Assembly: GCA_029262415.1 (NCBI GenBank)
Contig: JAJCZL010000021.1
Location: forward strand, 1-37,028
Length of the DNA: 37,028 nucleotides
Direction: 5' to 3'
Origin: Deltaproteobacteria bacterium
GTDB taxonomy: Bacteria > Desulfobacterota > Binatia > UBA1149 > JAJCZL01
Shown here: positions 531 to 29,615 of the stretch, in pieces
Numbering within the stretch: the stretch's first letter is position 1
How the letters are laid out: every line of letters begins with the position of its first letter
The notes under the pieces: model-generated
Databases searched by the model: none
What the model was told of the DNA's origin: nothing
The model's input: only the letters and a program-made list of their open reading frames with translations
Position numbers and translations under genes: made by a program

Positions 531-531
531 A

Positions 532-5832: not shown

Positions 5833-5866
5833 GCTTCTGCACTCCACCTCTTATGACCCCTGCCTT

Positions 5867-7815: not shown

Positions 7816-7821
7816 CCGGCC

Positions 7822-8454: not shown

Positions 8455-10214
8455 GAGGTCTGCACCGTGCGCAGGCCGAGTCCACGAAGCTGGTCACGGT
8501 CAACGCTCGAGGGTGCCTCCGTCAACAAGCACGCGGCGCGCTGGGTTTTGGGAAACGCAATCACGTCGCGGATCGATTCGCCGCCGACCAGCAAGGTGAC
8601 TAGACGGTCCAGACCGAGGGCGAGTCCCGCATGCGGCGGCGCACCGTGCGCGAGTGCGTCGAGCAAGAACCCGAACTTTTCACGGGCTTCGGCCTCCTCG
8701 ATGCCAAGGACCTTCAACACACGCTGCTGCATCGCCGGCGAGTGGATACGCACCGAGCCTCCCCCGAGTTCAACACCGTTGAGCACGATGTCATAGGCAT
8801 CGGCTCGAACCGAGAGCGGATCTGTTTCGAGACGCTCGCCGTCGGCGGGGCGTGGGGCCGTGAAAGGATGGTGCAAGGCGTAGTGCCTGTCCTCACCGGC
8901 ATCGTACTCAACCAGCGGAAAGTCCGTGACCCATAGGAATTTCCACGCACCAGCAGGGATCAGCTCACGCTGCGCAGCGATACGACAGCGCAGCGCGCCG
9001 AGCACATCGTAGACGACTTTGCTGGTGTCGGCACCGAACAAGAGCAGATCTCCGTCTTCGGCACCCATGGCTGCGGCAAGCGCTTCGCGTTCATCATCGC
9101 TGAAGAACTTCACGATCGGGGATTGCCACTCTCCACCGGCGACCTTGATCCAGGCGAGTCCTTTCGCTCCGAATTCGCAGGCATAGTTGCCGAGGTCGTC
9201 GATCTCCTTGCGCGACATGTCGGAGCCGCCTTTGAGGTTGAGGGCACGCACGGCACCTCCCCCTTCAATCGCTGCACGGAATACCTTGAAGCCACTCTCC
9301 TTGAAGACCTCAGAGAGCTCGACTATCTCGAGCGCGAAGCGCGTGTCCGGGCGGTCACTACCGAAGCGGGACACCGCTTCGTCGTAGGTCATTCGCGGAA
9401 AAGCGCCGTCAAACTGAACGTCGGCGAGCTCACCGAAAAGCTTACGCAATAGGTCCTCAACGATAGCCATGACGTCATCGGAGGTCACGAACGACATCTC
9501 GATATCTATCTGCGTGAATTCGGGCTGGCGATCGGCGCGCAGATCTTCGTCGCGGAAACAACGCGCGATCTGGTAGTAGCGGTCGACACCACCGACCATC
9601 AACAGCTGCTTGAACAACTGTGGGGACTGCGGGAGCGCGAAAAAGCTGCCGGGGTTCACCCTGCTCGGAACCAAGTAGTCGCGTGCCCCTTCAGGCGTGG
9701 AACGCGTCAGCATCGGCGTCTCGACCTCGATGAAACCCGCCTCATCGAAATGATTGCGTGCGATCCGGCAGGCCTGGTGCCGTACGCGAAGATTACGTTG
9801 CATGACCGGACGGCGCAGATCCAGGTAGCGATGCTTGAGGCGGACGTTCTCAGTGATGTGGGCGTCATCGTCGAGTGCGAACGGGGTGGGCAGCGAAGTA
9901 TTTAAGATCTCGAGTTCCGAGGCCATCAACTCGACCCGTCCGGTGGGCAGCCCGGGGTTGATGGTTTCGTCTGTGCGCGCACGCAAAGTCCCAGTGACGC
10001 TGAGGACGAATTCGTTACGAATATCGCCTGCGAGCTGGTGGGCATCGCCGGAAAGCTCGGGGTTAAAGACCACCTGTAGCAGCCCGGTATGGTCGCGAAG
10101 ATCGACGAAGATAACCCCCCCATGGTCACGGCGTGAGTGTACCCATCCCATCACGGTGAGGTTTTCCCCGATTTGTTCGGTGGTTACCAGTCCATTCCTA
10201 CAGCTTCGCTTCAA
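8451..10214 (-). CDS. aspS: Aspartate--tRNA ligase, bacterial type
   Basis: The 587-residue class II synthetase charges tRNA-Asp. An N-terminal OB-fold (GWVHSRRDHGGVIFVDLRDHTGLLQVVF, about residues 22-50) is followed by the catalytic core with motif 2 FRDEDLRADRQPEFTQIDIE, a GAD insertion domain around residues 280-410 (typical of bacterial rather than archaeal AspRS) and motif 3 GLALGLDRLVTLL. It starts at TTG 10214, which overlaps the hisS TGA stop (TTGA), mirroring the junction upstream of hisS. Whether it is discriminating or also charges tRNA-Asn cannot be decided here. Confidence 0.96.
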   Translation of the reverse strand: MKRSCRNGLVTTEQIGENLTVMGWVHSRRDHGGVIFVDLRDHTGLLQVVFNPELSGDAHQLAGDIRNEFVLSVTGTLRARTDETINPGLPTGRVELMASELEILNTSLPTPFALDDDAHITENVRLKHRYLDLRRPVMQRNLRVRHQACRIARNHFDEAGFIEVETPMLTRSTPEGARDYLVPSRVNPGSFFALPQSPQLFKQLLMVGGVDRYYQIARCFRDEDLRADRQPEFTQIDIEMSFVTSDDVMAIVEDLLRKLFGELADVQFDGAFPRMTYDEAVSRFGSDRPDTRFALEIVELSEVFKESGFKVFRAAIEGGGAVRALNLKGGSDMSRKEIDDLGNYACEFGAKGLAWIKVAGGEWQSPIVKFFSDDEREALAAAMGAEDGDLLLFGADTSKVVYDVLGALRCRIAAQRELIPAGAWKFLWVTDFPLVEYDAGEDRHYALHHPFTAPRPADGERLETDPLSVRADAYDIVLNGVELGGGSVRIHSPAMQQRVLKVLGIEEAEAREKFGFLLDALAHGAPPHAGLALGLDRLVTLLVGGESIRDVIAFPKTQRAACLLTEAPSSVDRDQLRGLGLRTVQTS

Positions 10215-11497
10215 TTATTGCCTACCTTTCGAATCGCTTCGAGCACGGCTTCGGCATCGTCGTCGAGGCCGAAGCATCCGGGATAATCGGCTTTCCTTAT
10301 CATGTCGCGGACGACCGGTCTCCCCGCGGCCAGTTCCTCGGGCCCGATAAGCACGACAAATCCAGCCCCGGCCTTATCGGCGCGCTTCATCTGCGCCTTT
10401 AGTTTGCGCGCGCCTGACTCGACTTCGACCGCGGCACCGGCCAGCCGCAGACGGCGCGCCAACAACGCCGCAGCAACCTCACAGCTTTCACCCACCGGCG
10501 CGATGAGTATGGAGTCGGCGTAGACTGCTTCGGCCTCGGCACCGCCGGCCAGTTCCATGCGCTCGACACCAAGCGCAAAACCGATCCCCGGGGTGTCTGC
10601 GCCGCCGAGTTGTGCGACCAAGCCGTCGTAACGCCCACCGCCGCCGATTGCGTTCTGCGAGCCGAGGTCTTTGTGGTCGGCGACAACCTCAAACGCCGTT
10701 CGTACGTAGTAGTCGAGCCCACGCACCATTCGTGGGGTGCGCTGCAGCTTAACGCCCGAAGCTTCGGCGAGTTCGATGACACGCCCGTAGTGACGCTCAC
10801 ACGGGTCGCAAAGATGGTCGGCCATCAATGGGGCGTCGGCAGTGGCTTCGGCGCATCCCGGGTTCTTGCAATCGAGGATACGCAAGGGGTTTCGTTCGAG
10901 CCGAGCGCGACAGTCCGCGCAAAGCGACTCGATGCGGCTGCGCGCGAAGTTGGTAAGGGATTCACGGTAGGCCGGTCGGCATTCGCGGTCACCGAGTGAG
11001 TTGACGAGGATACGTGCGCCATGGATCCCTGTAGCGCGGCAGATGTCGTCAACCAGACAAAGCGTCTCTGCGTCAGCCGCGGGATCGTCACGACCGAGGT
11101 ACTCAGCACCGATCTGGTGAAACTGACGCAGCCTGCCCTTTTGCGGTCGCTCACGCCGAAACATCGGGCCGGTGTAAAAAAGGCGCGCAACCGGAATCTC
11201 TCTAGCGCCACCCGCTTCGATGAACGCACGTACCACGGAGGCGGTTCCTTCGGGCCGCAGCGCGACGAGGGTCGCGTCTTTGTCCTTGTCGGTGAACGCG
11301 TACATCTCTTTTTCGACGATGTCGCTACTCGCCCCAACCGCACGGACGAACAACTCGCCCTTCTCGAGCAACGGAAGCTCGATGCGGCCGTATCCATAGG
11401 ATTCGAGTACTCGGCATGCACGCGTTGTCATGCGCTCACGCCGGGTGCCGGCGGGCGGGAAAACGTCCTTGAATCCTTTGATCGAGGTTACTTTCAA
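10211..11497 (-). CDS. hisS: Histidine--tRNA ligase
   Basis: This class II synthetase is 428 residues from the chosen TTG start (MKVTSIKGFKDVFPPAG). Key parts are motif 2 LFYTGPMFRRERPQKGRLRQFHQIGAE split around the RRE loop, PEGTASVVRAFIEAG, the histidine motif GLDYYVRTAFEV, AIGGGGRYDGLVAQLGG, and the anticodon-binding domain from about residue 325. I chose TTG 11497 because it overlaps the comEC stop (TTGA) and yields the standard N-terminus. The longer frame adds only the shadow of the comEC repeat tail. A Cys-containing insertion (CADCRARL and CKNPGCAEA, about residues 190-215) resembles the zinc-binding insertion seen in some HisRS. Confidence 0.96.
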   Translation of the reverse strand: MKVTSIKGFKDVFPPAGTRRERMTTRACRVLESYGYGRIELPLLEKGELFVRAVGASSDIVEKEMYAFTDKDKDATLVALRPEGTASVVRAFIEAGGAREIPVARLFYTGPMFRRERPQKGRLRQFHQIGAEYLGRDDPAADAETLCLVDDICRATGIHGARILVNSLGDRECRPAYRESLTNFARSRIESLCADCRARLERNPLRILDCKNPGCAEATADAPLMADHLCDPCERHYGRVIELAEASGVKLQRTPRMVRGLDYYVRTAFEVVADHKDLGSQNAIGGGGRYDGLVAQLGGADTPGIGFALGVERMELAGGAEAEAVYADSILIAPVGESCEVAAALLARRLRLAGAAVEVESGARKLKAQMKRADKAGAGFVVLIGPEELAAGRPVVRDMIRKADYPGCFGLDDDAEAVLEAIRKVGNN

Positions 11498-13992
11498 AAT
11501 TGGCAAAATGGGCAAAACCAGCAATACCAGCAAAAACCGGGTTCGGAACCGCCTCCCCTAGTCCCCGAGACGCTGACGCCGTCTGCGCTCAGACGGACCG
11601 ATACCGCGCCATCAAGATCGGTACGGTAGAACCTTATAGAACGGCTTTCAAACAGCGTACGCACGCGGGCGTGCGGAAACCCGTAGCGGTTGGCCGCTCC
11701 GAGCGAAGCTACCGCGTATCGTGGCGCAACCGCATCGACGAAACCCGGGTGCGAGGATGTCCCACTGCCGTGATGCCCGGCCTTGAGAACATCGGCTCGG
11801 AGCAGCCGCCCTGAGGCCAACAGGGCTTGCTCGGCGGGACCTTCAGCATCTCCGGTAAGCAGCACGGAGTGTCCGGCAAATGCGAGGCGTAAGACGATCG
11901 ACGCATCGTTGTCATCGCAAGCAAGCTCAGCGCCGGGCGGGCTGAGCACCTCTACGTGCGCAGCGTGCGGCTGAGTTCGCGGCAGCAGTCCCCAGCGTTT
12001 CGCCGCCCACGGCTCCTGCCGATCCCACGCAGCGATCTCGTGCACCGGAATTCCCAGGCCCTCGGCTCGCTCGACAAATTGATTGAATACCGCGTGCGAG
12101 CACGCGCCCGCCGGACGCCAGACCTCGCCGATCTCATAGCCGGCGAACAGTTCCGGTGCAGCGCCCCAGTGATCGGACTGCACATGGGTCAGAACCAGGT
12201 AATCGATGCGGCGAATCCACAGCCGCCGTAGCTCGCCATCGACCGCCAAGCGCACGCGCCCGGGCGGACCGGTGTCCACCAGCATGGTTTTGCCGCCAGG
12301 CAGCCGCACGATCGTGGCCTCGCCCTGTCCGACCGAGACGAACAGAACGTCGAGACTGTGGGACCCATAACGCCCGTGAAGCCCGGCAGCGACGAGCAGG
12401 ACTAAACACGAGGTCCAAACGGCAATCGCACCCAACCGCATCCGTCCGCGCGCGGTGAGCACCAGCACCGGCGCGGATAACCAAAGGCCGATCAATGGCC
12501 ACCCGGGAGCAACCGTCGGCGCCGAGGCCCACGGCCAGGATGCACACCAGTGCACAACGGCGATCACTGCTTGTGCGCAAAAGCAGGCTGCACCCATAAG
12601 TAACGTGGCACCGGGCATCGCAAACGCCGCCGCCAACGCACCGGCCAGCGCGAACCACAGTGCGGCAGCCAGCGGCAAGAGCGCAAGGACGCCGGTAGCA
12701 ACCCCGACGAAAGAAACACGGCCGAAGTGTTGCGCCGCCAGTGGTGCGGTCGCCGACCACGCGACCGCACCAGCGACGGCGGTATCGGCAGCGAAGACGC
12801 ACGCACGAGCAAAGACCGGTGCGCAGCGATCGATGCGTGCCGAGAGCGACACACCAGCGAACAGCAACAGCGCACCCACCGCCGCAAACGAGAGTTGGAA
12901 CGAGGCCTCACGAACGGCGCCCGGCATGGCCAGTGAAACCGCGATCGCCGCCAAGCCGAGCGCCGGCCACGCGTCCGCTCGCCCCCCGCGCCACAACCAG
13001 CGCAACGCGGCTGAGGCCATAATCGCGGCGCGAGCTACCGATATCCCCCCGCCGCTTACACCGGCATACCCGAGCATCGCTGTCAGCGCTGCAACGACGC
13101 TGGGCCGCATGACGTCGTGGTAGGCCGAGAAGACCGGTAAGCGCAGTAGCAACCAGCGCACGGCCTGAAGGACCGCGCCGACCACCACCGCCATGTGCAT
13201 CCCCGAGATCGCCAACACGTGCGACGCACCGGCATCGCGGAACGTCTGTTGCAATTCGCGTCCCAGTCTAGAACGGTCTCCAAGCAGCAGCGCTTCAACT
13301 AACGCACTACCTTCGGTGTCACCTCTCTCGCGTATTGCCGCGCGCAGCCGGATGCGCGCGGCCTGCAGGAGCGAAACATCCAGCTGGTCACGCCGACCTA
13401 GAGATTCGATCTCACGTGTGTCTGTGTCTTTCCAAAGGTAGGCCGACACACGGACACCCCTGCGGGCGTTCCAACCAGCCCAATCGAAGCCACCTCGATT
13501 GCCGAAGCCTTCGATGCGTCGAAGGTAGCTGCGCACCCGTAACCGTTCGCCCACGAGGTAGCCACGCCCAGGATGTTTGATGGTTAGCAGAAGCTTCCCA
13601 CACTGCGGTGCCAAGACCTGAACCCGTAACCGCAACGAGCCGTCCTCATGCGGCTCGATGCGAAACACCCGAGCCTCGAGTGTCACGCGCACGGGAGAGC
13701 GCGGCTGCCCCTCGAGCAAGCGCACGACGTCACAGCCGGGCGGCGGCGCTGCATCGAGCGCGTGAACGGTGCCAACCGCGACGGCACCCACCAGCGTCCA
13801 GATAACGACGCTGCGTGAGAGGATCCGCGCCGCGGCAAGTGACGCGACCAGCAACGCGATGAGTACGGTCGGAACCCAGCTCGCCGTTTGTGGGTACGGG
13901 TCAGACAACGCCCATCCCATCGCGAGCACTACCCCCGCTACGGTCATCACTCCCACCATACCGCGCCTACCCGCAGCGGCTCGGCGCGGCAA
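11494..13992 (-). CDS. comEC: DNA internalization competence protein ComEC/Rec2
   Basis: This is a membrane protein of up to 832 residues for passage of single-stranded DNA during transformation. The N-terminal third has early membrane helices and a DUF4131-like segment. The Competence domain carries LLLGDRSRLGRELQQTFRDAGASHVLAISGMHMAVV (about residues 230-265) and many helices. The C-terminal metallo-beta-lactamase-like domain has LFVSVGQGEATIVRLPGG, THVQSDHWGA and KAGHHGSGTSS. The start is uncertain: TTG 13992, or ATG 13959 or 13947, the last with GGAG just upstream. It ends in an odd repeat tail (FCWYCWFCPFCQF) encoded by a 9-nt tandem repeat that leads into hisS. Confidence 0.95.
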   Translation of the reverse strand: MPRRAAAGRRGMVGVMTVAGVVLAMGWALSDPYPQTASWVPTVLIALLVASLAAARILSRSVVIWTLVGAVAVGTVHALDAAPPPGCDVVRLLEGQPRSPVRVTLEARVFRIEPHEDGSLRLRVQVLAPQCGKLLLTIKHPGRGYLVGERLRVRSYLRRIEGFGNRGGFDWAGWNARRGVRVSAYLWKDTDTREIESLGRRDQLDVSLLQAARIRLRAAIRERGDTEGSALVEALLLGDRSRLGRELQQTFRDAGASHVLAISGMHMAVVVGAVLQAVRWLLLRLPVFSAYHDVMRPSVVAALTAMLGYAGVSGGGISVARAAIMASAALRWLWRGGRADAWPALGLAAIAVSLAMPGAVREASFQLSFAAVGALLLFAGVSLSARIDRCAPVFARACVFAADTAVAGAVAWSATAPLAAQHFGRVSFVGVATGVLALLPLAAALWFALAGALAAAFAMPGATLLMGAACFCAQAVIAVVHWCASWPWASAPTVAPGWPLIGLWLSAPVLVLTARGRMRLGAIAVWTSCLVLLVAAGLHGRYGSHSLDVLFVSVGQGEATIVRLPGGKTMLVDTGPPGRVRLAVDGELRRLWIRRIDYLVLTHVQSDHWGAAPELFAGYEIGEVWRPAGACSHAVFNQFVERAEGLGIPVHEIAAWDRQEPWAAKRWGLLPRTQPHAAHVEVLSPPGAELACDDNDASIVLRLAFAGHSVLLTGDAEGPAEQALLASGRLLRADVLKAGHHGSGTSSHPGFVDAVAPRYAVASLGAANRYGFPHARVRTLFESRSIRFYRTDLDGAVSVRLSADGVSVSGTRGGGSEPGFCWYCWFCPFCQF
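11497..11535 (-). repeat. 9-nt tandem repeat at comEC/hisS junction
   Basis: On the minus strand four degenerate 9-mers (TTTTGCTGG, TATTGCTGG, TTTTGCCCA, TTTTGCCAA) followed by TTT encode the ComEC tail FCW-YCW-FCP-FCQ-F. The hisS TTG start and the comEC TGA stop fall at the repeat's end. The unit length is a codon multiple, so gain or loss of a unit would preserve the frame. Confidence 0.8.
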
Positions 13993-14056: not shown

Positions 14057-15943
14057 CTAGCGGTCGGCATCGCGACCCAGGTGCTCCAGAATCGCTTCGG
14101 CGTTTGCGGCGGTAATTCCCGGCACGCCGGCAAGCTCTTGCAAGTTAGCCGCAGCAACCCCACTTACACTGCCGAACCTTGTCAGTAAAGCCTTGCGTTT
14201 GCTCGGCCCGATGCCGGCGATACCATCGAGTTGTGAAACGAGTCGCTCCTTGGAGCGCACGCTGCGGTGGAATGTTATAGCGAAGCGGTGGGCTTCGTCG
14301 CGAAGCTGCTGCAGCAGAAACAGTGCGTTCGAGTTGCGGCGCAGCACGATGGGATTCGACCGCCCGGGCCGGAAGACCCGTTCTTCGCTGTGGGTAATCT
14401 CGGCAGATGCCGGATCGCGCGCCACCTTGTCTTTCGCAAGCGATGCCAGCGCCACCCCTTCGATACCGAGTTCCTCGATGGCCGCAACCGCCATCGCCAG
14501 TTGCCCTTTGCCGCCGTCAACGACGATGAGGTCGGGTAAACCACCCTCTTTCAGACCACGGGTGAGCCGACGCGAGAGAACCTCGCGCATCGCCGCGAAG
14601 TCGTCGTTGCGTTGGACCCCTTTCAGCTTGAAGCGGCGGTATCCGGCTTTGTCCGGAACCCCCTCGTCAAAAGCCACAAGTGATGCAACCACGGCGTCGC
14701 CCTGCGAGTGAGAGATGTCGAAACACTCGATACGCTTGGGCATGCTCGTCAACCCCAGCTTGCGCTGCAGCTCTTCGAGCATTTTCTGCCGTCTGCTACT
14801 CTCGTCGTTGCGCTCGGCGAACGCATGCGCGGCGTTCTCCAGCGCCATCTCGACAAGACTACGTCGCTCTCCGCGCTGCGGCACCAGAACCTTTACGCGA
14901 CGACTTCGGGTCTGGCTGAGGTAGTCGGCAAGAACCTCGGCTCCCTCGACAGACAATGGGAGTAAGACCTCTTCGGGCACAAAGCGTTCAGCCTGATAAA
15001 AACGTGAGAGCAACGACGATAGCACTTCTTCGTCGGGTAGCTCGTGGTCTTCGAAATTATAGCCGTGGTTGCCCACGAGTTTACCGCCGCGGACAACAAG
15101 GACCTGAGCCTCGATGAACCCGCCTTCCCGGTACAGACCGAATACGTCGCGGTCGCCGCCACCGTGGTCGACGACCTTTTGCTGCTCGGCGACTTTCTCC
15201 ACCACCGCAACTCTATCGCGCATTCGCGCCGCATCCTCGAAACGTTGCTCCTCCGAAGCCTTCGTCATTCGCCGTGTTAACTCTTTAGAAAGCGCCTCGG
15301 TCTTGCCCTCGAGCAACTGTACCGCACCGCGCAAGTGCTGCTCGTACTCTCCGCGATCGATATCGAGCACGCACGGTGCCATGCAACGCTTGATCTGATA
15401 CTCCAAGCAAGGGCGCGAGCGGTTGCGGAACACGGCATCCGAACAACTACGCAGTGGGAAGATTTTGCGGATGACATCGACGGTTTCGCGCACCCCCGCA
15501 GCCGAAGCGAAAGGGCCGAGGTAGGTATTGCCGTCTTTACTGATCTTGCGGGTGACGATAATGCGCGGCCACTCGTCTTTGGCCGTCACCTTGACCGAGA
15601 CATAGCTCTTGTCGTCTTGAAGCCTGATGTTGTAACGCGGCTTGTATTGCTTGATGAGATTGTTCTCGAGAATCAGCGCCTCGGTCTCATTGGCGGTGAC
15701 CAGCGTCTCGATATCGGCCGCGCGACTCATCAAAAAACCGATTTGATAGCGACCGTCACCTCCCCTGACATAGCTCCGCACACGCTCTCGTAAGCTTTTG
15801 GCCTTGCCTACATAGATGACCTTGCCGCGCTTGTCCTTAAACAAGTAGACGCCGGGCCGCGGCGGGAGCCCTTCTGCCTTGGTCTCGAGTGGGCTCGGCA
15901 GCTCCCTTGCTTCCTCCTCCGACCTGGAGTCGCCATCAGCCAT
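14057..15943 (-). CDS. uvrC: Excinuclease ABC subunit C
   Basis: The 628-residue nuclease makes both incisions in nucleotide excision repair. The N-terminal GIY-YIG domain has [19 protein letters not shown] (about residues 29-47). The UVR domain follows near residue 220 ([23 protein letters not shown]). The C-terminal RNase H-like nuclease carries [11 protein letters not shown] and [11 protein letters not shown], with paired HhH motifs at the end ([16 protein letters not shown] and [13 protein letters not shown]). I chose ATG 15943, which overlaps the uvrB end by 8 nt. The longer open frame upstream is a shadow of uvrB. Confidence 0.97.
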
Positions 15944-17945
15944 CGATGCCGAGCTCCTCGCTTTCCAGTCGGTTGGCCCGGTCGCGCAACTCGGCGGCAC
16001 GTTCGAAGTCCAAGCGTTGCGCGGCGCTACGCATTTCCTTACGCAGGCGGTCGACCTCTTTGCGCAGGTTCGCGCCGCCCGCGTAGGGCGAAGCTTCTTC
16101 AGCAATCTCGGGGAGCGGGCCGTAGTCGGCCTCGGCCATGCGCACCAGTGGATCCTCGATCGCCCTGCTGATTGATCGTGGGATAATGCCGTGCTCGGCG
16201 TTGTAGGCCTCCTGGACCGCGCGACGGCGCTCGGTCTCATCCATCGCCTGTCTCATCGAGCGAGTTATGGTGTCCGCGTACAGGATCGCCTTACCGTTGA
16301 TGTGACGTGCGGCGCGTCCCATCGTCTGGATCAACGAGCGCGTTGAGCGCAAGAAACCTTCTTTATCTGCGTCGAGAATAGCGACCAGCGAAACTTCCGG
16401 CAGATCGAGACCCTCGCGCAACAGGTTGATCCCGACCAGTACGTCGAACTCACCCTTGCGAAGATCACGAATGATTTCGACGCGCTCGAGCGTATCAATC
16501 TCTGAATGCAAGTAACGTACGCGCACCCCGACATCGTGGTAATAGTCGGTCAGATCCTCCGAAAGCTTCTTGGTAAGCGTAGTGACGAGAACGCGTTCAC
16601 CGGCCTCGGCGCGAATGCGGATTTCGCCAAGTAAGTCGTCGACTTGGCGACCGGCAGGCCTGACCTCGATCTCGGGGTCGGTCAATCCGGTCGGACGGAT
16701 GAGCTGCTCGACCACGGCGCCACCGGTCTTTGCAAGCTCGAAATCACCCGGCGTCGCCGACACGTAAACTGTTTGCCCCACAGTTGCCTCGAATTCTTCA
16801 AAGTTCAGCGGCCTGTTGTCAAGCGCCGAGGGCAGACGGAATCCGAATTCAACCAAAGTTTCCTTGCGCGAACGGTCACCGCGAAACATGCCGCCGACCT
16901 GTGAGACCGTCACATGGCTTTCATCGATAAAGGTCAGCATGCCGCCACGATCGAAATAGTGCAGCAGAGTGGGCGGCGTCGCTCCCGGCTCGCGCCCCGT
17001 CAAGTGGCGCGAATAGTTCTCTACCCCAGGACACGTGCCCATCTCCGAGAGTAGTTCGATGTCGTACATAGTCCGCTGCTCGAGCCGCTGCGCTTCGAGC
17101 ATCTTGTTCTCGCGCCGTAACTCGACGAGCCGGGTGCCTAGCTCCTGTCGAATCCCCTCGATGGCCTTGACCAGACGATCGGGAGCGGTCACGTAGTGAC
17201 TCGCCGGATAGATACACATGCGCTCGATCTTGGACAGGACCTGCCCACGTAACGGGTCGATCTCCTTGATTGCCTCGACCTCGTCGTCGAAAAACTCGAT
17301 ACGCACCGCACGCTTGTCTTCGTAGACCGGAAACACCTCGACGACGTCGCCGCGCACGCGAAATGTGCCGCGATGAAAATCGTAGTCACCGCGTTGGTAC
17401 TGAATCCGCACGAGCTTGGCCAAAAGCTCGTCGCGATCAACCTTCATGCCCTCCTCGAGAAAGAGCAGCATATCGAAGTAATCCTCGGGCGAACCTAGAC
17501 CATAGATGCAGGAAACCGAGGCGACGATCAGGACATCGTTGCGTTCGAGCAACGCCCGCGTCGCCGAATGGCGAAGTTTGTCGATCTCATCATTGATCGA
17601 GGAGTCTTTCTCTATGTAGGTATCCGAACTCGGGACGTAGGCCTCCGGCTGGTAGTAGTCATAGTAGGATACGAAGTAGCGGACCGCGTTGTCGGGGAAC
17701 AAGACCTTGAATTCACTGTAGAGCTGGGCCGCCAGCGTTTTATTCGGAGCCAGCACCAGAGAGGGGCGATTCGCCTGGGCGATTACGTTCGCGATCGTGA
17801 ACGTCTTTCCCGACCCGGTAACTCCGAGCAGCACCTGGTGGCTCTCGCCCGCCGACAGCGCTTTCGAGAGCAACTCGATCGCCTGCGGCTGGTCACCGGC
17901 AGGATCGAAGTCGGTGCTCAGACGGAAGGTTCCCGGCTTAGTCAC
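15936..17945 (-). CDS. uvrB: Excinuclease ABC subunit B
   Basis: The 669-residue helicase-like damage verifier of nucleotide excision repair. It has Walker [16 protein letters not shown] (about residues 42-56), the beta-hairpin region with [21 protein letters not shown] as motif II, helicase motifs V and VI ([26 protein letters not shown], then QTMGRAARH) and the C-terminal UVR motif that binds UvrC ([24 protein letters not shown]). It starts with GTG. It is the first gene of the long minus-strand unit and overlaps uvrC by 8 nt, a direct uvrB-uvrC pairing that is uncommon in gammaproteobacteria. Confidence 0.98.
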
Positions 17946-18068: not shown

Positions 18069-18521
18069 GTGATCAAACTTATCGGCTTCTCGACCGCACT
18101 ACTGATAGCTGTCTTCGCAATTTCCAGCGGCGATACATTCGCCCAGGGACAGGCAGACCTGATCACCCCCGATTTCGACGCGCCGAAGGCCGGCCACGAC
18201 CCCAAGCATACGCCGAAAATCACCGCCCCGGAAAAAGTCGTGGCCGGCGAATGGTTCGACGTGACCATTGAAATCGGCACCGATGCCCGTCACCCGTCCT
18301 TCGTCGAACACTTCGTGCGCTGGATCGAACTTTCGATCGATGACGTCGAAATCGCACGCACTTACCTGCACCCGGTGTTCAGCTCGCCTAAGGTCACCTA
18401 TACGATCGCGCTGAAGCGCTCGGGCACGCTCAAGGTTCGCGAGGCCCCGAACCACACCTCGGCGTGGACGGCCACCCGAGCGATTACGGTTACGGCGAAG
18501 GCTCCCTCGACCAAACAATAG
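18069..18521 (+). CDS. Exported class II SORL-type protein without Cys ligand
   Basis: This 150-residue protein has a signal peptide (about residues 1-26, IGFSTALLIAVFAISSGDTFA) and a superoxide-reductase-like immunoglobulin fold. The iron-site histidines are recognisable: H47 in KHTPKITAPE, H75 and H81 in HPSFVEHFVRWIEL, and H129 in EAPNH. In genuine superoxide reductases the last motif is CNxH, with Cys as axial Fe ligand. Here that position is Ala126 (APNH), and the protein contains no Cys at all. It may bind a metal through four His or be a non-catalytic relative; SoxZ has a similar fold. An AGGGAGA sequence lies 9 nt before the ATG. It converges with the cupredoxin-like gene, overlapping it by 32 nt. 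Confidence 0.72.
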   Translation: MIKLIGFSTALLIAVFAISSGDTFAQGQADLITPDFDAPKAGHDPKHTPKITAPEKVVAGEWFDVTIEIGTDARHPSFVEHFVRWIELSIDDVEIARTYLHPVFSSPKVTYTIALKRSGTLKVREAPNHTSAWTATRAITVTAKAPSTKQ

Positions 18522-19248
18522 CTGGGTTTTCGCCGCCCGCGCGCAGCAGGGCTTCGCGTTCGCCGAGTTCCTGGTGCCAAAGCCTTACCTGGTGCTCGCC
18601 CGCGGGCAGCCCATCAATAGAAAATCGTCCACGCGAGTCACTGACTGTAATGTAGCGGTGCGGCGCCACCACGATGACCGCGCTCATCCAGTGGTGAACG
18701 TCGCATTCGGCCACCACAATCTCGGGTTCCGAGAACATCGCCTTCGCGGCGATTCCACTCGGCTGCCCACGGTTGACGGTTTTGTTGAGCTTGGCGCGTG
18801 TGCGGAAGTTGTGAAACACCTTGTCACCGTTGGTCACTTTAACTTCAGTTCCTGGTGCGACCACGCTCAAGTGCGGTCGGAACACGCAAGCCTGCTGCTC
18901 CATCGTGACCGTTGCTGTCAGCGGGTAAGGGTCGTCGCCGGGAGGCGACACTAGCGTAATGACTACGTCGGCAAGTCCCCGGTCGGGGCCAAGCACGAGG
19001 CGCGGGTCAGGCGTTGTCCCTTCTCGGCCGCACTCCCATTCATCGATGGTTATCTTGATCGGAGGACGGCGTTGGACCCCATCCCCTGCAAACACCCGCC
19101 CACTTAGCGTCGCAGTGGCACTCAAAGCCTGAGTGTCGTCTGCGACCGGATTGGTGCGAGGCTCGGGGACCTCGCTACAGGAGATGGCGAGCGCACAAAG
19201 AGTTATCGCGGCAGAGTTGAGACCGGCGAAGTAGCGGCTGCGCAGCAT
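18490..19248 (-). CDS. Cupredoxin-like lipoprotein with regulatory-like C-terminus
   Basis: This 252-residue protein has a lipoprotein signal (ITLCALAISCS, lipobox Cys about residue 24). A central domain resembles plastocyanin-type cupredoxins: GTEVKVTNGDKVFHNFRT supplies a His, and ECDVHHWMSAVIVV gives the Cys-His-Met set expected of a type 1 copper site. The C-terminus (YITVSDSRGRFSIDGLPAGEHQVRLWHQE) is a carboxypeptidase-regulatory-like beta domain. This combination is a known family, often with the form CDxHPWM. Electron transfer or copper handling at the outer membrane or periplasm is inferred. It converges on the SORL-type gene. Confidence 0.75.
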   Translation of the reverse strand: MLRSRYFAGLNSAAITLCALAISCSEVPEPRTNPVADDTQALSATATLSGRVFAGDGVQRRPPIKITIDEWECGREGTTPDPRLVLGPDRGLADVVITLVSPPGDDPYPLTATVTMEQQACVFRPHLSVVAPGTEVKVTNGDKVFHNFRTRAKLNKTVNRGQPSGIAAKAMFSEPEIVVAECDVHHWMSAVIVVAPHRYITVSDSRGRFSIDGLPAGEHQVRLWHQELGEREALLRAGGENPAIVWSREPSP

Positions 19249-19309: not shown

Positions 19310-20248
19310 TCAGCCTGGAAGGTTCGCTTTGACCGACATCATGGCCGGTCCGAGGATGACCAGAAACATCGTCGGAAAGATGAACAGGACCAGCGGAAAA
19401 AGTAATTTGACGGCTGCCTTGTTGGCCATCTCCGACGCGCGCTGGCGACGTGCGACACGCGATTCATCCGCGTAAATGCGCAGTGCATCGGCGACATTGG
19501 TGCCCAGCTTCTCGCTTTGGATCATGAAAGCGGAAAGTGATTTGAGCTCGTCAACGCCATTGCGCTCGGCCAGGTCACGGAAGGAATCCTCACGCGTACG
19601 TCCGGCCTGCAACTCGTGCGTCATCTGCCGAAGCTCCAAGCCCATCACATCAGCGCCAAGCTTGCAGCGTTCATCGGCTACACGCTTAATCGCGGTGTTC
19701 AGTCCAAGGCCCGATTCGACGCACAGAATCAGCATGTCGATGACATCGGGCACCGTCCTCATGATGCTTTCCTGACGTTTCTTAACCTTGTGATTGACTA
19801 ACAGGCGCGGGATTAGGAAACCCACAACCAGCGCACACATGCCCAGGCCGAGCGACTTGTCCGCCTTGCCCGCCGCAACCAAGCTGGCGCCGACAATCCC
19901 GCCTAAACCGGCAGCGCTGACAATCATTGCACCGGAGTAGATTGCGACCGCTCCTGAAGAACGCCAACCCGCCATCGACAGCATCAGTTTCGTCGCTGAC
20001 ACGCTCTGTTCATCCGATTTCATGCGAACCTGGTACCAGTTACCGAGATCGAGCAAGAAACGCGCGATGAACGTCCCTTCAGTCTTACGTTGGAATCCGA
20101 CCGGCTCGTCGCTGACCCCGTACCCACCGCTGCTCGACACTGCGTGGAGCCGCTCGCTTGCGGAAGTGTCTGCCTGCGTAGCCTGGTACGTACCGACACA
20201 AATCAGCACGAGTCCGCCCGCGACCGCTAGTGAGATGATAAAAACCAT
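19310..20248 (-). CDS. tadC: Tad pilus inner-membrane platform protein TadC
   Basis: This 312-residue type II secretion F-domain protein has a membrane helix at the N-terminus, two near residues 95-150, and a C-terminal helix (LLFPLVLFIFPTMFLVILGPAM). Between them is the cytoplasmic helical F domain with DVIDMLILCVESGLGLNTAIKRVA and LRQMTHELQAGRTREDSF. With TadB it forms the platform on which the TadA/CpaF ATPase assembles Flp-type pilins. It is the last gene of the operon, 12 bp after tadB. Confidence 0.92.
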   Translation of the reverse strand: MVFIISLAVAGGLVLICVGTYQATQADTSASERLHAVSSSGGYGVSDEPVGFQRKTEGTFIARFLLDLGNWYQVRMKSDEQSVSATKLMLSMAGWRSSGAVAIYSGAMIVSAAGLGGIVGASLVAAGKADKSLGLGMCALVVGFLIPRLLVNHKVKKRQESIMRTVPDVIDMLILCVESGLGLNTAIKRVADERCKLGADVMGLELRQMTHELQAGRTREDSFRDLAERNGVDELKSLSAFMIQSEKLGTNVADALRIYADESRVARRQRASEMANKAAVKLLFPLVLFIFPTMFLVILGPAMMSVKANLPG

Positions 20249-20260
20249 TCTCCTGACTCC

Positions 20261-21235
20261 TTAGAATTTAACCTTGCAAACCCTGCGAATCCAGATGAAC
20301 CCGATCGTCTCACTGCACATCGCGGCCATCAGCAGCTTATTGCCCTGCTCAGTGTCGAACAGAGGCATCAAGTACTCGGGTTGCATCAAACTGATGATGA
20401 GGCAAAGCGCGATCGGCAGAACGGCGATGACGATACCGGAAATCCGGCCTTCCGCGGTAAGCGATTTCACTTCGGCCTCGAGCCGAAACCTCTCACGAAT
20501 CGTCCTTGAGATATTGTCGAGCAGTTCAGTCAAGTTACCGCCGACTTCGTGCTGGATGAGCACTGCGGCGACAAAAATATTCAGGCTGTCGTTCGGCATC
20601 CGGGTTGCGAGGTTGCCCATCGCACGCGTAAGCGGAAGCCCCAGGCGCAGCTCTTCGACGGTATCGCGGAATTCGGTACCAAGCGGTGCCGGCATTTCTT
20701 CGGACACGATCGCCATCGCCTTGCCGAGCGTATGACCCGCGCGCAGAGCGTTTTTGATCATCGTCATCGAGTCAGGAAGCTGGCGCGAAAACTCGGCCAT
20801 GCGCTTATTCTTCTTGCGAATGACGTGCATGATCGGCAGCACAGCGAAAATAGCGCCGCCGACGAGGCCGGAGGCTGCGTAACCGGTGCTCGAAGAGAAC
20901 GTGAAGAAGCCGATTGCCGCTAGGATTGCGCACTTGATGATAACGTCGCCCGGCCTGGCATTCGACCGAGACTGGATGAGCAAGCTTTCCAGGTTCCCGG
21001 TGATCGAGAAGTTCTTGAGAGCCCTGTTGAGCCAACCGTGCTTGCCGTCGCCCATGTCGCGCCGGATCGAAGCCTGGATCTGCGCGTCGGTGACTCCTTG
21101 CTGCGCAGCCCCCTCGTCGAGCAAACGACTTCGGAGTTCGTCACGTTTCTTTCCACCGCCGGTGCCGGAAATCGCACCGACTATGATGAATAGTAGAGCC
21201 GCTGCGAAGGCCAGGGATATTAGGAGTGGGAGCAT
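20261..21235 (-). CDS. tadB: Tad pilus inner-membrane platform protein TadB
   Basis: This 324-residue paralogue of TadC has an N-terminal membrane helix (LISLAFAAALLFIIVGAI), central helices near residues 100-135, the F-domain sequence LPDSMTMIKNALRAGHTLGKAMAIVSEEMPAPLG..F, and a paired helical C-terminus (GIVIAVLPIALCLIISLM). It partners TadC as the pilus assembly platform. It lies 5 bp after cpaF and 12 bp before tadC. Confidence 0.92.
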   Translation of the reverse strand: MLPLLISLAFAAALLFIIVGAISGTGGGKKRDELRSRLLDEGAAQQGVTDAQIQASIRRDMGDGKHGWLNRALKNFSITGNLESLLIQSRSNARPGDVIIKCAILAAIGFFTFSSSTGYAASGLVGGAIFAVLPIMHVIRKKNKRMAEFSRQLPDSMTMIKNALRAGHTLGKAMAIVSEEMPAPLGTEFRDTVEELRLGLPLTRAMGNLATRMPNDSLNIFVAAVLIQHEVGGNLTELLDNISRTIRERFRLEAEVKSLTAEGRISGIVIAVLPIALCLIISLMQPEYLMPLFDTEQGNKLLMAAMCSETIGFIWIRRVCKVKF

Positions 21236-21240
21236 CGCGG

Positions 21241-22827
21241 CTAGTTCAACCTCCTATGCGCAAAGAAGTTCGGATCGAACTTCGAACCGTAGATGTTCAA
21301 ACGTTCGATGCACTTAGGACGAATACCGCAACACTCGTGGTAACCGACGACCTTGCCATCCTCGTCGAGCCCCGTCGTCACAAACTGAAAAATATCTTGC
21401 GAGGTGATCATGTCACCTTCCATCCCGACGACCTCGGTGATCTTGACGATCTTTCTGCTGCCGTCCTTCATGCGAGCGGCCTGAATGATCACATCGACTG
21501 CCGACGAGATCTGTTGGCGCATCGCTTGCACCGGAAGATCAACGCCGGACATCAGGATGAGCATCTCGAGACGACTTAGAGCGTCGCGCGGATTGTTCGC
21601 GTGAATGGTCGTCTTTGAACCATCGTGACCGGTGTTCATGGCCTGGAGCATATCCAGGGCCTCGGCACCACGCGTCTCGCCAACGACGATCCGGTCGGGA
21701 CGCATACGCAGCGCGTTCCTGACCAGATCACGTGCGGTTATCTCACCCCTACCTTCAAGGTTCTGGGGGCGGGTTTCCAGACGGACCACGTGCGGTTGTT
21801 GAATCTGAATTTCGGCTGCGTCTTCGATCGTAACGATTCGTTCGTCGTGCGGGATAAAGCTCGACAGACAGTTCAGCAGTGTCGTCTTGCCCGAACCGGT
21901 ACCGCCTGACACGATGACGTTCAGACGCGCTTTTACGATCGCGTCCATGAACTCGGCCATCTCTGCTGCGACCGACTTGAACTGGATCAACGAGCCGATC
22001 AGCAGCGGGTCTTTACCAAAACGCCGGATCGAGACGCAGGGTCCGTCCAAGGCGATTGGCGGGATAATTGCGTTCACACGTGAACCGTCTTGCAAGCGGG
22101 CGTCAACCAGCGGCGATGACGCATCCACGCGGCGCCCGACCTGCGACACGATGCGGTCGATAATCTGCAGCAGATGCTCGTCGTCGCGAAACTGGCAGTC
22201 GGCAAGCTCGAGCTTACCTTTACGTTCGATGTAAACCTGCGAGGGGCTGTTGACGAGGATATCGCTGATGGTGTCGTCGCGGATCAACGCATCGAGGGGA
22301 CCGAGCCCCAACACCTCACTGGTGATTTCCGCAATCAGTTTTAGCTTGTCGTTACGTGAGAGCGGAATCCCGTTGGTTTCAAGCAGCTCACCGATGATCT
22401 GCTTGATTTCCTCGGACAACCCACCGACACCAACCTCGCCGACCGCGCTCAGATCGAGACGCTCGATGAGTTCCGCGTGCACGCGCATCTTCAGATCGGT
22501 ATTGCCCGCGTTGGGATTGGCGGGCCCATGGCGCCTCACGCGGGCTTCGGCGGCCTGCTTGTTCGATTCCTGCGCGCGCTGTTGCATCGTAGCACGGCGC
22601 GGTTCCACGCCGCCGGCAGCCGCCGGCGGAGCCGGCTGTTGCTTGGGGGCTGCTGGTGCGGGGTTGGTCGCAACGGGCATAGTATCGCCTTCGCGCGGCG
22701 CGCCGCCCGAGGGGGCGGAGGGACTCGGAGTCTTTGTGGACACCGCCTCTCCGTTCGCCGAACCATTGACTTTCGAGTCCGAATCGCCGGAGCCTTCACG
22801 CGCCCTGAGTCGTTCTAGTAGGCTCAT
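21241..22827 (-). CDS. cpaF: Tad pilus assembly ATPase CpaF/TadA
   Basis: This 528-residue secretion ATPase of the VirB11/GspE class powers Flp pilus assembly. The first 100 residues are a Pro/Ala/Gln-rich, probably disordered extension. The conserved part contains [42 protein letters not shown], Walker [15 protein letters not shown], the Asp-box [12 protein letters not shown], and Walker B-like [30 protein letters not shown]. The first ATG is supported by the short 3-bp gap to cpaE. The length exceeds many CpaF proteins because of the extension. Confidence 0.95.
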
Positions 22828-22830
22828 GCC

Positions 22831-24024
22831 TTAGGGCCTCGCATCGGAGAAGAATCTACCAAAGAGCCTCCCTTTACTGTCGTAGGTTTCGTTCGTGCCG
22901 GTCAAGGCCCGGCCTATGTCGGTAATGCCACTAACCAGGGGACTTTTCGGGTTAATCTCGTACAAAGGAACACCTCTGTTGGCGGCTTCGATTGCAGTGA
23001 GCGAATCGCATGGAAGCGTGTACTTTACCTCGAGCTTTACGACATCGGTGATGTCGTGCGTCGAAATCTTGGAGCGCTCAACCGGGCTGTTCAGGACGAG
23101 CTGCAGATTCGCCATATCGACCCCCAAACGTTCCAGGGTATTTACGACCCGCTGCATCGCACGCACCGACGGAACCATGTTGTCGGTGAGCAAAAAGACT
23201 TTCTCCGCACTTTCGATCACTGAGAAGGTCAGATCGTTCAAGAACGACGAGGTATCGACGATCACGTACTGAAATGCATTCTTCAGGTGATTCAGTACGT
23301 CGGCAACGTTCTGGGCCGAGATCGATTCACCGTCCTCCAGCATCGGCGGCGGAGGTAGCACTTCAATGCCCGAGCTGTGGTGAAACAACGTTCCCTGGAG
23401 AAAAACCGGATCGAGATTCTCAATGTGTTCGCACACGTCGAGGATCGAGTACGGATGCTTGAAATTGAGATAGACGGGCGTATCGCCGTTTTGCAGATCG
23501 AGATCAACCAGACAGACGCTCGCGTCGGTCAGGCGATGAATCGTCGTGGCCAGGTTGGTCAGGAACGTGGTCACGCCCGCACCGCCGTGCGGCGAGAATG
23601 CCGTGATGATCTCGCCGACACTGTGCGGACCTTGCGCCCCGCGGCGGCGCCCGTCAGCGATCTTGATAACCGGCGGGAGCAACTCTTGAATGCTAGGTAC
23701 CGCCGAGCTCAATTCGTCCGCCCCGGATCTAATCGCCTTTACAATCAGCTCGGCACTCCGGTCGCTCGAGATCGCGAAGGTAAACACCCCAGGTCTGGCC
23801 TGTTTCAGTCGGGCCAGCAGCGCGCACCCGACGTCCGGTCGTTCGTCTAAGAACACCACCGCTACGTCGGCCGACATCGTCTCGACTTTCTGTACTGCGT
23901 TCGCAAAATCAGCCGACTCAACCACAACCTTGAAGCCAGGGAGGCTTGTGAAAACCTCCGACATGGCTTGTTGGTTGGAGCGATCTTTGCCAATAACGAC
24001 CGCGACAATGCTCTCTGCGTTCAC
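22831..24024 (-). CDS. cpaE: Tad localisation ATPase-like protein CpaE/TadZ
   Basis: The 397-residue protein combines an atypical receiver-like N-terminal domain (about residues 1-125) with a ParA/MinD-type domain, the family layout for CpaE/TadZ, which positions Tad machinery at the pole. The P-loop reads FSPHGGAGVTTFLTNLA. Both lysines expected in a deviant Walker A (KGGxGKT) are replaced, by His and Val, so ATP hydrolysis is doubtful. The LVDLDLQNGDTPVYLN segment and YVIVDTSSFLNDL are the Walker A' and B regions. It follows cpaC by 42 bp and precedes cpaF by 3 bp. Confidence 0.92.
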   Translation of the reverse strand: MNAESIVAVVIGKDRSNQQAMSEVFTSLPGFKVVVESADFANAVQKVETMSADVAVVFLDERPDVGCALLARLKQARPGVFTFAISSDRSAELIVKAIRSGADELSSAVPSIQELLPPVIKIADGRRRGAQGPHSVGEIITAFSPHGGAGVTTFLTNLATTIHRLTDASVCLVDLDLQNGDTPVYLNFKHPYSILDVCEHIENLDPVFLQGTLFHHSSGIEVLPPPPMLEDGESISAQNVADVLNHLKNAFQYVIVDTSSFLNDLTFSVIESAEKVFLLTDNMVPSVRAMQRVVNTLERLGVDMANLQLVLNSPVERSKISTHDITDVVKLEVKYTLPCDSLTAIEAANRGVPLYEINPKSPLVSGITDIGRALTGTNETYDSKGRLFGRFFSDARP

Positions 24025-24066
24025 CTTAACCCCTCGTAGTACCGGTTCATGCCCTGGGCGCGGGTC

Positions 24067-25296
24067 CTACTGCTGACGTATGACGTCAGTCTTCCTCTGG
24101 ACGAGCCCCAGTGATCCATTTTGATTGAGTGACAGGTCCTCGTTTGTTCTTTTCTCGAGCCCGGTGCCGGCACCCGAGTCGTCACCGCGCACAATGTGCG
24201 GCTGGATGATGATCACCAGCTCGGTCTTCTCACGCGTCTTGCTTGACGAGCGGAAGAAGTAGCCGAGAACCGGGATGTCGCCGAAGAACGGCATTTTGCC
24301 CGTCACCTCACCCGAGGTCTCACGCATCAATCCGGCGATCACCAGGCTTTGGCCGTCCATGAGAGACACATCGGTCTCCGCACGTCGCGTCACGAACGCA
24401 GGAACCGAAAACGAATTGAGAATCACCGAATTGCCCGGATCGGGTGCACTCACCTCGGACATCACCGTCAACCGGATCATGCCGTCGGGCTCTACGGTCG
24501 GTTGAAACTCCACCCTAGTGCCGAACTCTTTGTATTCGATGGTGGTCTGATCGTTCTCTGCGATGACGATCGGCAGTTCGCCGCCCGAAAGGAACTTAGC
24601 CTTCTGGCCGCTGCGCGCCATCAGTTTCGGTTCGGCGAGGATATGCGCGAAGTCGGCCTCCTCGATCATCTTAACGTAAGCCGCGATGTCGTTCTTGAAG
24701 TCAACGATGGCCCAGGAGATCTCGCCGCCGAGCGACACTGGGAACGTCGGCTGTGAGCCCGTAGGCGGATCCACGCCACCTGTCGGCGCGACGTTGCCGT
24801 ACTGAGTGATGGCGCCAAATCGGCCACCCATCGTGCGGAGGTCAAAGCCATGGCGTTCGGCCTCGGTGCGGTTGACCTCGGCGACGGTAACCTCGAGCAC
24901 GACCTGCTCATGAAGCGAATCTGCGATGATGAGGCTGTACATCTTGTAGTTGTTCAGCCGGTCCCAAACGATGACCGCGGTCTCGCCCGTCTTGAGAGCG
25001 TTGACCTGGAGCTGATGCTCATTAATCAGCACTACGTCGGCGGTCTCGGGGTTTGCGACCGAGACCTTCCGGATGCTGTTCTGCATCTTCAGGACGATCG
25101 ATTTACCGGTGACCAGACGTAGGACGTTTTCTTCACTGCCGATACCGGCGACGATATTGGTCGGACTTACCGACCAGCCTCGTCCCCGCGACGCGGAACC
25201 CGCGAAAGCATCACTCGAAAATGCTCCAGCGACGGTCAGCGCCACGGTCAAAACGGCCGCACCCGCAATACTCTTGTTGGCAAACTTAGAATTCAT
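24067..25296 (-). CDS. cpaC: Tad pilus outer-membrane secretin CpaC/RcpA
   Basis: This 409-residue protein has a signal peptide (SIAGAAVLTVALTVAGAFSSDAFA). Next come an N-terminal pilus-secretin domain (ENVLRLVTGKSIVLKMQNSIRKVSVANPETADV), a BON-like segment (LQVNALKTGETAVIVWDR), and the secretin channel domain, recognisable by EVTVAEVNRTEAERHGFDL, LSGGELPIVI and VSLMDGQSLVIAGLM. It should form the outer-membrane pore. I chose ATG 25296, with GGAGAG a few bases upstream; the longer frame from 25317 covers the ribosome-binding site. Confidence 0.94.
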   Translation of the reverse strand: MNSKFANKSIAGAAVLTVALTVAGAFSSDAFAGSASRGRGWSVSPTNIVAGIGSEENVLRLVTGKSIVLKMQNSIRKVSVANPETADVVLINEHQLQVNALKTGETAVIVWDRLNNYKMYSLIIADSLHEQVVLEVTVAEVNRTEAERHGFDLRTMGGRFGAITQYGNVAPTGGVDPPTGSQPTFPVSLGGEISWAIVDFKNDIAAYVKMIEEADFAHILAEPKLMARSGQKAKFLSGGELPIVIAENDQTTIEYKEFGTRVEFQPTVEPDGMIRLTVMSEVSAPDPGNSVILNSFSVPAFVTRRAETDVSLMDGQSLVIAGLMRETSGEVTGKMPFFGDIPVLGYFFRSSSKTREKTELVIIIQPHIVRGDDSGAGTGLEKRTNEDLSLNQNGSLGLVQRKTDVIRQQ

Positions 25297-25318
25297 TGTC
25301 TTCTCTCCGCCTCCCACC

Positions 25319-26080
25319 TTAGAAGTTAACCGTCTGGACTTTCTTGCCGCGGATCACTTCTACAGAACCCGAGCCGAACGCGGATGTGATCTGGTCGATC
25401 GTGCGTCCACCGGTGAATACGTCGAGCTTGTCCAGGTCGTTGCGGAGGGCGAGATGCAAGCTGCCTTCATTGGCTGCGAGCGTCAGCACCTCGGCACTCG
25501 ACGGAGTGACATCCAGCGTAACCGTGTTCACCACGACCGGCTTGTTGTCGACTTGCTCGATGATTTGATCGACTGCGAGAACCTCGAGGCCCTGCAGGAT
25601 GATCTTGGACTTGGCCGGTTCGTTGTCACGTTCGCGGACGCTCATGAGAACGTCGACGCGGCTGCCGGGACCGACGAAACCGGAAATTCCCGTCACCTCG
25701 TTCACTTTTACTGACATTGCCCGGTGGCCTTGCGGCACCAGCATACTCAGAAGAGAAGAGCTGCGGTTCTTAGCGAGCTTACTCTCGGTGATCGGCTCGT
25801 TTGCGATCATTCCGATGCGGGTCAGCTTTCCGATCAACGCTGCCGGGTCGGAAACTGCCCCCTCGGGAACGGCGTGTGCCGGCCAGTCGACAACTTTGAT
25901 GTGATCGACGTCGAGCAGTTCGCCACGCGAGACATCCAGCGCAGCGACGGCGACCTGACGGTATTCGACTTTTTGTTCGACGACACCATCTGTCTGACCG
26001 CTCAAGTAAGAGTAGGTCATGAAGAAAGCGCCGATTGCGATCGCGACGCCGATACCGATTAAAACTGAGGGCTTACCCAT
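25319..26080 (-). CDS. cpaB: Tad pilus assembly protein CpaB/RcpC
   Basis: This 253-residue periplasmic protein is anchored by an N-terminal helix (VLIGIGVAIAIGAFFMTYSYLSG). A SAF-type domain follows (QVAVAALDVSRGELLDVDHIKVVDWP), then MLVPQGHRAMSVKVNEVTGISGFVGPGSRVDVLMS, the signature of CpaB/RcpC, thought to stabilise the secretin. I chose ATG 26080 because it overlaps the cpaA stop by one base (TAATG); an upstream in-frame start would lie inside cpaA. Confidence 0.94.
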   Translation of the reverse strand: MGKPSVLIGIGVAIAIGAFFMTYSYLSGQTDGVVEQKVEYRQVAVAALDVSRGELLDVDHIKVVDWPAHAVPEGAVSDPAALIGKLTRIGMIANEPITESKLAKNRSSSLLSMLVPQGHRAMSVKVNEVTGISGFVGPGSRVDVLMSVRERDNEPAKSKIILQGLEVLAVDQIIEQVDNKPVVVNTVTLDVTPSSAEVLTLAANEGSLHLALRNDLDKLDVFTGGRTIDQITSAFGSGSVEVIRGKKVQTVNF

Positions 26081-26601
26081 TATACCAACCTCCAAGTGTG
26101 AGCTACGATCGCGCCGGCAAAGCCGATCGCGAGCATCACTCCGTACGGAATCGTATGAACAGCAGCCGTCTGCTTGAGCGTGTCGGGCTTAACGCCCGAT
26201 GAAAGACTGTATAAATCTCCCCACAAGTTCTTCATCGCTACAGACATCCGTCCCTGAGAGACCAAGGATATCACCCCGACAACCCCGCCGATGATTATTC
26301 CACTTGCCAGTCCTACCAAGAGAATGCGCCATCCAAGGAAGGCACCGACCGCCGCAGCGAATTTGACGTCGCCGCCGCCGAGTAAACCGCAGGCAAAGGG
26401 TGCGAGAAGAACCGCAAAACCAACGCCCAATCCTAGTGCCGCGGTCAACAGACCGGCAGTACCGTTGGTCACAAACTGCAAGGCAAATGCGACCGCAGCC
26501 GCTGTGATATTGAGGCGATTGGAAATAGTTCGAGCGCGCAGATCGGCAAGCGCCGCTGCGACGAGAAAAAGGCCTGCCGCTGCTGCGACTATGGGATCCA
26601 T
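26080..26601 (-). CDS. cpaA: Prepilin peptidase CpaA/TadV
   Basis: This 173-residue membrane protease of the type IV prepilin peptidase family (A24) cleaves Flp-type prepilins. The catalytic aspartates are visible in LADLRARTISNRLN (first Asp) and GGGDVKFAAAVGAFLGW (GxGD motif). Around six hydrophobic helices are present. There is no N-methylase/zinc domain, consistent with TadV. ATG 26601 is my choice, with in-frame GTG 26610 as an alternative. It is the first gene of the Tad operon. No Flp pilin or TadE/F pseudopilin gene is found nearby, so its substrate is encoded elsewhere. Confidence 0.92.
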   Translation of the reverse strand: MDPIVAAAAGLFLVAAALADLRARTISNRLNITAAAVAFALQFVTNGTAGLLTAALGLGVGFAVLLAPFACGLLGGGDVKFAAAVGAFLGWRILLVGLASGIIIGGVVGVISLVSQGRMSVAMKNLWGDLYSLSSGVKPDTLKQTAAVHTIPYGVMLAIGFAGAIVAHTWRLV

Positions 26602-29492: not shown

Positions 29493-29615
29493 GTAACCTT
29501 CCGTTCATGCCGCTCTTGTAGCGGCTACGGCCTGCGAGTGCACCAGGCGGCGCTCGACATCGCCGCTGCGCCTTTTTAGTGTGGCACGACGTCGTCGTCG
29601 CCCGACACCTCCCAC

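Follow-up and report, generated by a model that had tools for sequence, protein, structure and literature searches.

The gene at 18069-18521 on the forward strand of the 37,028-nucleotide stretch of DNA analysed here (the window) encodes a protein of the superoxide reductase (SOR) fold that has lost the cysteine of the SOR metal site; it belongs to a subfamily in which five histidines are conserved almost throughout and whose genes are linked to a cupredoxin gene, and often to sensor genes as well. We propose, at a probability of roughly 40%, that this Cys-less protein is a redox partner of the neighbouring cupredoxin and would use a poly-His metal site; its metal, the electron exchange, the substrate and the connection to signalling we infer. 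Loss of the Cys, fixation of a Pro, an extra His and a copper-protein neighbour, found together over several phyla, amount to a natural experiment on the SOR fold without its thiolate, and the conserved gene set makes the function testable in a cultured genus, Variovorax. In the open-licence literature (titles and abstract openings), neither a Cys-less SOR subfamily nor an SOR-like/cupredoxin gene pair was found described among the matches listed, and the words "desulfoferrodoxin" and "cupredoxin" occurred together in one paper, on short linear motifs. The features concerned are the following.

18069-18521, + strand: Cys-less SOR-like secreted protein, 150-aa ORF with a GTG start
18069-18143, + strand: predicted signal peptide, residues 1-25; hydrophobic segment, cleavage site placed by eye
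18204-18209, + strand: K46-H47, corresponding to KH in the EKH motif of SORs; conserved in all 39 distinct members
18291-18311, + strand: H75-x5-H81, with E80, the HX5H of SOR centre II; 39 of 39
18369-18371, + strand: H101, a further conserved His (the fifth), on the loop that follows strand C'; present in 38 of 39 and replaced by Asn in L045
18447-18455, + strand: P127-N128-H129, aligned with the Cys, the Asn and the residue after it in SORs; P and H in all 39
18490-19248, - strand: cupredoxin-like protein with a C-terminal CarboxypepD_reg-like domain, 252 aa, convergent; both Pfam matches below curated cut-offs
18685-18813, - strand: putative type 1 copper ligands H146, C182, H185 and M188 (C-D-V-H-H-W-M loop)

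Fold and putative metal-site residues of the Cys-less protein

The first-pass annotation of this gene had described a secreted protein of SOR family and fold, devoid of Cys and with His residues at positions 47, 75, 81 and 129, and all of these points hold. The protein scores 64.2 bits against PF01880 (desulfoferrodoxin; cut-off 22.2), its hydrophobic leader has a mean h-region hydropathy of 2.52, not one Cys occurs among its 150 residues, and the four His numbers are correct. Against TIGR00332, the NCBIfam model of the canonical iron-binding domain, it reaches 31.7 bits, under the curated cut-off of 61.9, as do the Cys-less members L046 (25.8), L042 (21.1) and L045 (40); the Cys-bearing L066 clears this cut-off with 62.5 bits.

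Structure prediction, which had been proposed as a check, also returned the SOR fold. The AlphaFold model was built from 29 sequences and replaced a five-sequence model (pLDDT 72.5), reaching a mean pLDDT of 88.0 and a pTM of 0.79. In a VIA-align comparison, the best match is the SOR TM0658 (Z 15.1, rmsd 2.7, 112 residues), followed by the SORs of Ignicoccus (14.7) and Nanoarchaeum (13.8) and then by a SoxYZ chain (13.3), assigned to SoxZ by its length, the entry naming the complex only; at lower ranks stand other SORs (13.2 down to 10.4) and SoxY (10.6). The top of the Foldseek ranking agrees with VIA-align (4brj, E 3.7e-9). Judging from the strand order in the model topology, the B-C loop (H75, H81), the C'-E loop (H101) and the F-G loop (H129) would share one end of the sandwich.

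The nearest solved structures are those of 1Fe class II SORs (neelaredoxins, PF01880), from Ignicoccus hospitalis (4brj/4bk8) and Thermotoga maritima (TM0658; 2amu/3qzb). The Cys-less protein has in common with them the Ig-like fold, the KH and HX5H motifs, and a strand that ends at the metal loop with a Trp after it. However, it lacks the Cys of the site, reads P-[NT]-H-[STA] in place of C-N-x-H, carries the extra His101, is predicted to be secreted, is linked to a cupredoxin gene and falls under the TIGR00332 cut-off. Textbook accounts of superoxide reduction are built on the Fe(His)4Cys site of SORs; the Lys of their KH motif guides superoxide.

The register of the missing Cys differs from that given at first. 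C-N-x-H aligns without gaps to P127-N128-H129-T130 alike in phmmer (against the Ignicoccus and Thermotoga SORs), in hmmsearch (PDB sequences searched with a profile built from 29 relatives) and in HHalign (the profile against 15 Cys-bearing relatives, namely 14 of 30 canonical loci plus L066). The Cys column is thus occupied by Pro127, and H129 lies one column ahead of the fourth His of SORs. This rules out the earlier claim that an Ala replaces the axial Cys, as all three aligners put Pro127 and not Ala126 in that column; position 126 is Glu in 35 of the 39 members and Ala in one, the window protein. The family spacing attributed to the four His residues likewise stands for H47, H75 and H81 and fails for H129, so that by sequence alignment three of the equatorial His ligands of SORs are in column here and the fourth is shifted by one, while a fifth near-invariant His, H101, had been missed. 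The defining motifs of SOR centre II, as worded in an excerpt of the SORGOdb paper (PMC3116461), are HX5H and CX2H; the former is matched by H75-x5-H81 in all 39 members, the latter lacks its axial Cys in all 39, with Pro in the Cys column, and therefore the 18069-18521 protein is not a superoxide reductase by the motif that this excerpt gives.

Conservation, distribution and origin of the subfamily

Members were chosen by a profile E value below 1e-40 and a pattern requiring P-[TN]-H; the pattern excluded one strong match only, the truncated L063, and so hides no exceptions. The resulting 39 distinct proteins are members taken as loci, two of which (L059 and L064) stop at contig edges; outside the count are the truncated L063 and L067, the Cys-bearing L066 and some matches from the class search around a Rokubacteria genome. 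Invariant across the 39 are D44, K46, H47, P49, W62, H75, P76, E80, H81, R97, Y99, P127 and H129. Two members, L048 and L050, bear a Cys elsewhere in the protein, and L050 has Arg in place of W133. All 39 share the His/Pro pattern, so chance or a decayed gene is rejected, and the Cys-less proteins are, as judged from their sequences, a family. The His set as a whole, kept in 38 or 39 of the 39, is consistent with the His-only metal site without thiolate that had been considered possible, and would place such a site under strong conservation.

Scanning GTDB contigs yielded 30 loci, distributed over Binatia, Rokubacteria, Deltaproteobacteria MAGs, Variovorax and other Burkholderiales or Betaproteobacteria, Poribacteria, and MAGs of Pyrinomonadaceae, NC10 and Planctomycetota, the Planctomycetota locus (L066) being the one that retains the canonical Cys. 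Within the window's class, the SOR-like gene matched in 9 of 148 genomes. In the family around a Variovorax genome, the single match in 299 genomes was that genome itself. The class to which a Rokubacteria genome belongs gave matches in 26 of 95 genomes, one of them at E 9.5e-4 and two of them partial. A plasmid search with the Variovorax protein gave no match.

In the phylogenetic tree, the 39 Cys-less members form one side of a branch (support 100/98), apart from 28 Cys-bearing rows (27 distinct, two being identical). These rows were kept from 35, seven without the motifs needed for trimming having been dropped, and they come mostly from the window's phylum plus one Planctomycetota genome. 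A single origin of the Cys-less subfamily is likely on this topology, short of proof, since the alignment has few columns and long branches join at that split.

Linkage to a cupredoxin and to signalling genes

The SOR-like gene converges on the gene at 18490-19248 (- strand) and overlaps it by 32 bases, in agreement with the first-pass annotation, which had called the latter a cupredoxin-like lipoprotein gene; the lipoprotein part is doubtful, as the lipobox looks weak by eye. Its product fits cupredoxins with a C-D-x-H-x-W-M loop plus a CarboxypepD_reg-like domain (weak amicyanin/plastocyanin similarity) and scores 14.5 bits against Pfam Copper-bind, under the cut-off of 21.2. All 22 aligned proteins have H146, C182, H185 and M188, a set suggestive of type 1 copper in the partner.

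Conservation of the neighbourhood, a further check proposed at the outset, is pronounced. A cupredoxin gene is present in the locus of 36 of the 39 distinct members, within about 0.5 kb in 25 and at about 2.1-2.2 kb in 11, where kinase and regulator genes lie between; the three loci without one are L059 and L064, at contig ends, and L050, with none within 6 kb. At 30 canonical PF01880 loci, the best-scoring ones retrieved, no cupredoxin gene was found in flanks of up to 1.5 kb, and the like-for-like comparison within 1.5 kb is 25 of 39 Cys-less loci versus 0 of 30 canonical ones. Such linkage argues for the periplasmic pair with the cupredoxin that had been suspected from the window.

Linked cupredoxins also appear to differ from selected unlinked copies at the residue after the loop His, which is Ser, Thr, His or Tyr in 35 of 38 linked pieces (the exceptions being both L045 copies, with Pro, and one fragment without the loop) versus Gly in 13, Pro in 5, Asn in 1 and Glu in 1 of 20 unlinked copies hand-picked from the class list, counts that ignore kinship. 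Adjoining the unlinked genes is a cytochrome c gene cluster in 10 of the 20 loci and a COX15/CtaA one in 5. Pairwise distances of the SOR-like protein correlate with those of the cupredoxin (r = 0.92, n = 35, L053 left out) and of the response regulator (r = 0.86, n = 28); transfer as one block would also give such correlations. In G026, the linked cupredoxin gene (L005 2136-2801, L073) is broken by an in-frame TAG, and the adjoining SOR-like gene is intact.

A histidine kinase, receiver or receiver-cyclase gene (L042-related) lies within 5 kb in 31 of the 39 loci, versus 0 of the 30 canonical loci (flanks up to 1.5 kb). Three layouts recur: cupredoxin-kinase-regulator-SOR-cyclase in 10 loci, cyclase(reverse)-kinase-regulator-SOR-cupredoxin(reverse) in 8, and kinase-regulator-cyclase-SOR-cupredoxin(reverse) in 3, the rest being shorter or cut-off versions. 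Three kinases examined have a HAMP domain and at least two hydrophobic segments about 150 residues apart. No signalling gene is nearby in eight of the 39 loci, including the window and L041, whose flank there is just 158 bases; the SOR-like/cupredoxin pair stands alone in the window, as it does in G001 and G002, which are most closely related to it. In L045, the SOR-like gene sits between two cupredoxins, behind genes for a Rieske-like protein (a match under NCBIfam cut-offs), cytochrome b, a petD-like protein and a multi-domain cytochrome c; this region (261-7148) resembles an alternative bc complex of which the Cys-less protein would be a part.

Proposed role, alternatives and other genes of the window

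In the proposed mechanism, the SOR-fold protein would be exported and bind a single redox metal (Fe or Cu) via H47, H75 and H81 of the old SOR site together with H129 and perhaps H101. It would exchange electrons with the type-1-like cupredoxin, and its open site may meet a small molecule, either an oxygen or a nitrogen species. The membrane histidine kinase, the response regulator and the response-regulator/cyclase present in most sampled loci could report on or control the redox state; the window's lineage would run the pair without signalling genes nearby. Against redox pairing stand L050, which keeps the SOR-like protein with no cupredoxin within 6 kb, the abundance of the cupredoxin family without an SOR-like gene (138 versus 9 of the 148 class genomes), the one-column offset of H129 from the SOR ligand and the partner's score under the Copper-bind cut-off. 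A bolder form of this proposal, which we regard as somewhat unlikely, would see in the locus a new periplasmic module, in which a thiolate-free poly-His site and a dedicated blue-copper protein sense or remove reactive oxygen or nitrogen species, with their own kinase, regulator and cyclase as readout in most sampled loci, and which in the window's lineage might replace the missing superoxide dismutases.

The signalling genes invite a reading in which the SOR-like protein serves, together with the cupredoxin, not as an enzyme but as a periplasmic ligand or redox receptor that binds the sensor region of the linked kinase. Their frequency in several gene orders, their absence from the flanks of canonical loci and the kinase segments with some 150 residues between them are all consistent with it, but we consider it unlikely, given the eight loci with no such gene nearby and the cytochrome cluster that L045 has instead. 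Copper handling, with the poly-His protein holding or delivering copper for the cupredoxin as a metallochaperone or buffer, would account for the near-constant cupredoxin linkage and the His-only site without thiolate, and an Ig-like fold is found in some other periplasmic copper carriers. Yet inspection by eye showed neither a Met-rich nor an N-terminal His motif, the protein retains K46 and the HX5H of SORs as expected for an anion-facing redox site, and across the class genomes the cupredoxin family mostly occurs without such a partner, which together make this role quite unlikely in our view.

A superoxide role of the Cys-less protein is possible but not favoured, and its strict form, a genuine superoxide reductase or dismutase that uses a His-only site and takes the place of other defences, we hold to be very unlikely. 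Searches for Fe/Mn-SOD (PF02777) and Cu/Zn-SOD (PF00080) found neither in the genome that contains the window (96.8% complete), nor in G001, G053 and G436; no PF01880 gene besides 18069-18521 was found in the window's genome; Fe/Mn-SOD occurs in 0 of 3 carriers versus 7 of 10 non-carriers within the window's order; and K46 is invariant. However, the axial Cys belongs to the definition of SORs, 7 of the 11 carriers examined own an Fe/Mn-SOD or Cu/Zn-SOD, three non-carriers of the order are also without Fe/Mn-SOD, and the Ni-SOD search, which matched in no control, is uninformative and lends no support to absence of Ni-SOD. Extremely improbable is a SoxY/SoxZ-like sulfur carrier or a metal-free scaffold. 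SoxY and SoxZ (PF13501, PF08770) are likewise periplasmic with a related Ig-like fold, the SoxYZ chain (Z 13.3) outranks several SORs, L004 shows weak SoxY likeness (23.7 bits against a cut-off of 28.4), L046 scores 23.4 against 172 on the SoxY-related TIGR04487, and a SoxY-SoxZ fusion, L007, is a distant match. But the Cys of SoxY sits on a C-terminal arm, and the window protein, without any Cys, has no carrier arm and has a His site instead; it gave no match to PF13501 or PF08770 at E 1, and the close homologues, which the first-pass annotation had allowed might prove SoxZ-like, score with PF01880, no scanned family member reaching the cut-off of the SoxY or SoxZ model. A sulfur carrier is rejected on sequence models and the absence of Cys, although the fold is close, and a scaffold would not need five near-invariant His residues. 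L007 itself (E 8.8e-6) bears a Cys and is not of the subfamily; its fusion gene (1078-1878, - strand) adjoins one for a membrane protein that by eye is YeeE/YedE transporter-like.

Elsewhere in the window, two genes upstream at 14057-17945 (- strand) read as UvrC and UvrB, and the genes downstream at 19310-26679 (- strand) read as Tad/Flp pilus-like. A 581-residue ORF at 31342-33087 (- strand) has no Pfam match at E 1e-4. Among Pfam-searched ORFs at 2557-11533 (- strand) are glycine cleavage P and T proteins, a folate dehydrogenase/cyclohydrolase, and class II (D/K/N) and His-tRNA synthetase-like genes, and at 28053-31016 a phosphodiesterase/nucleotide pyrophosphatase gene (- strand) and a sulfatase gene (+ strand) are divergent.
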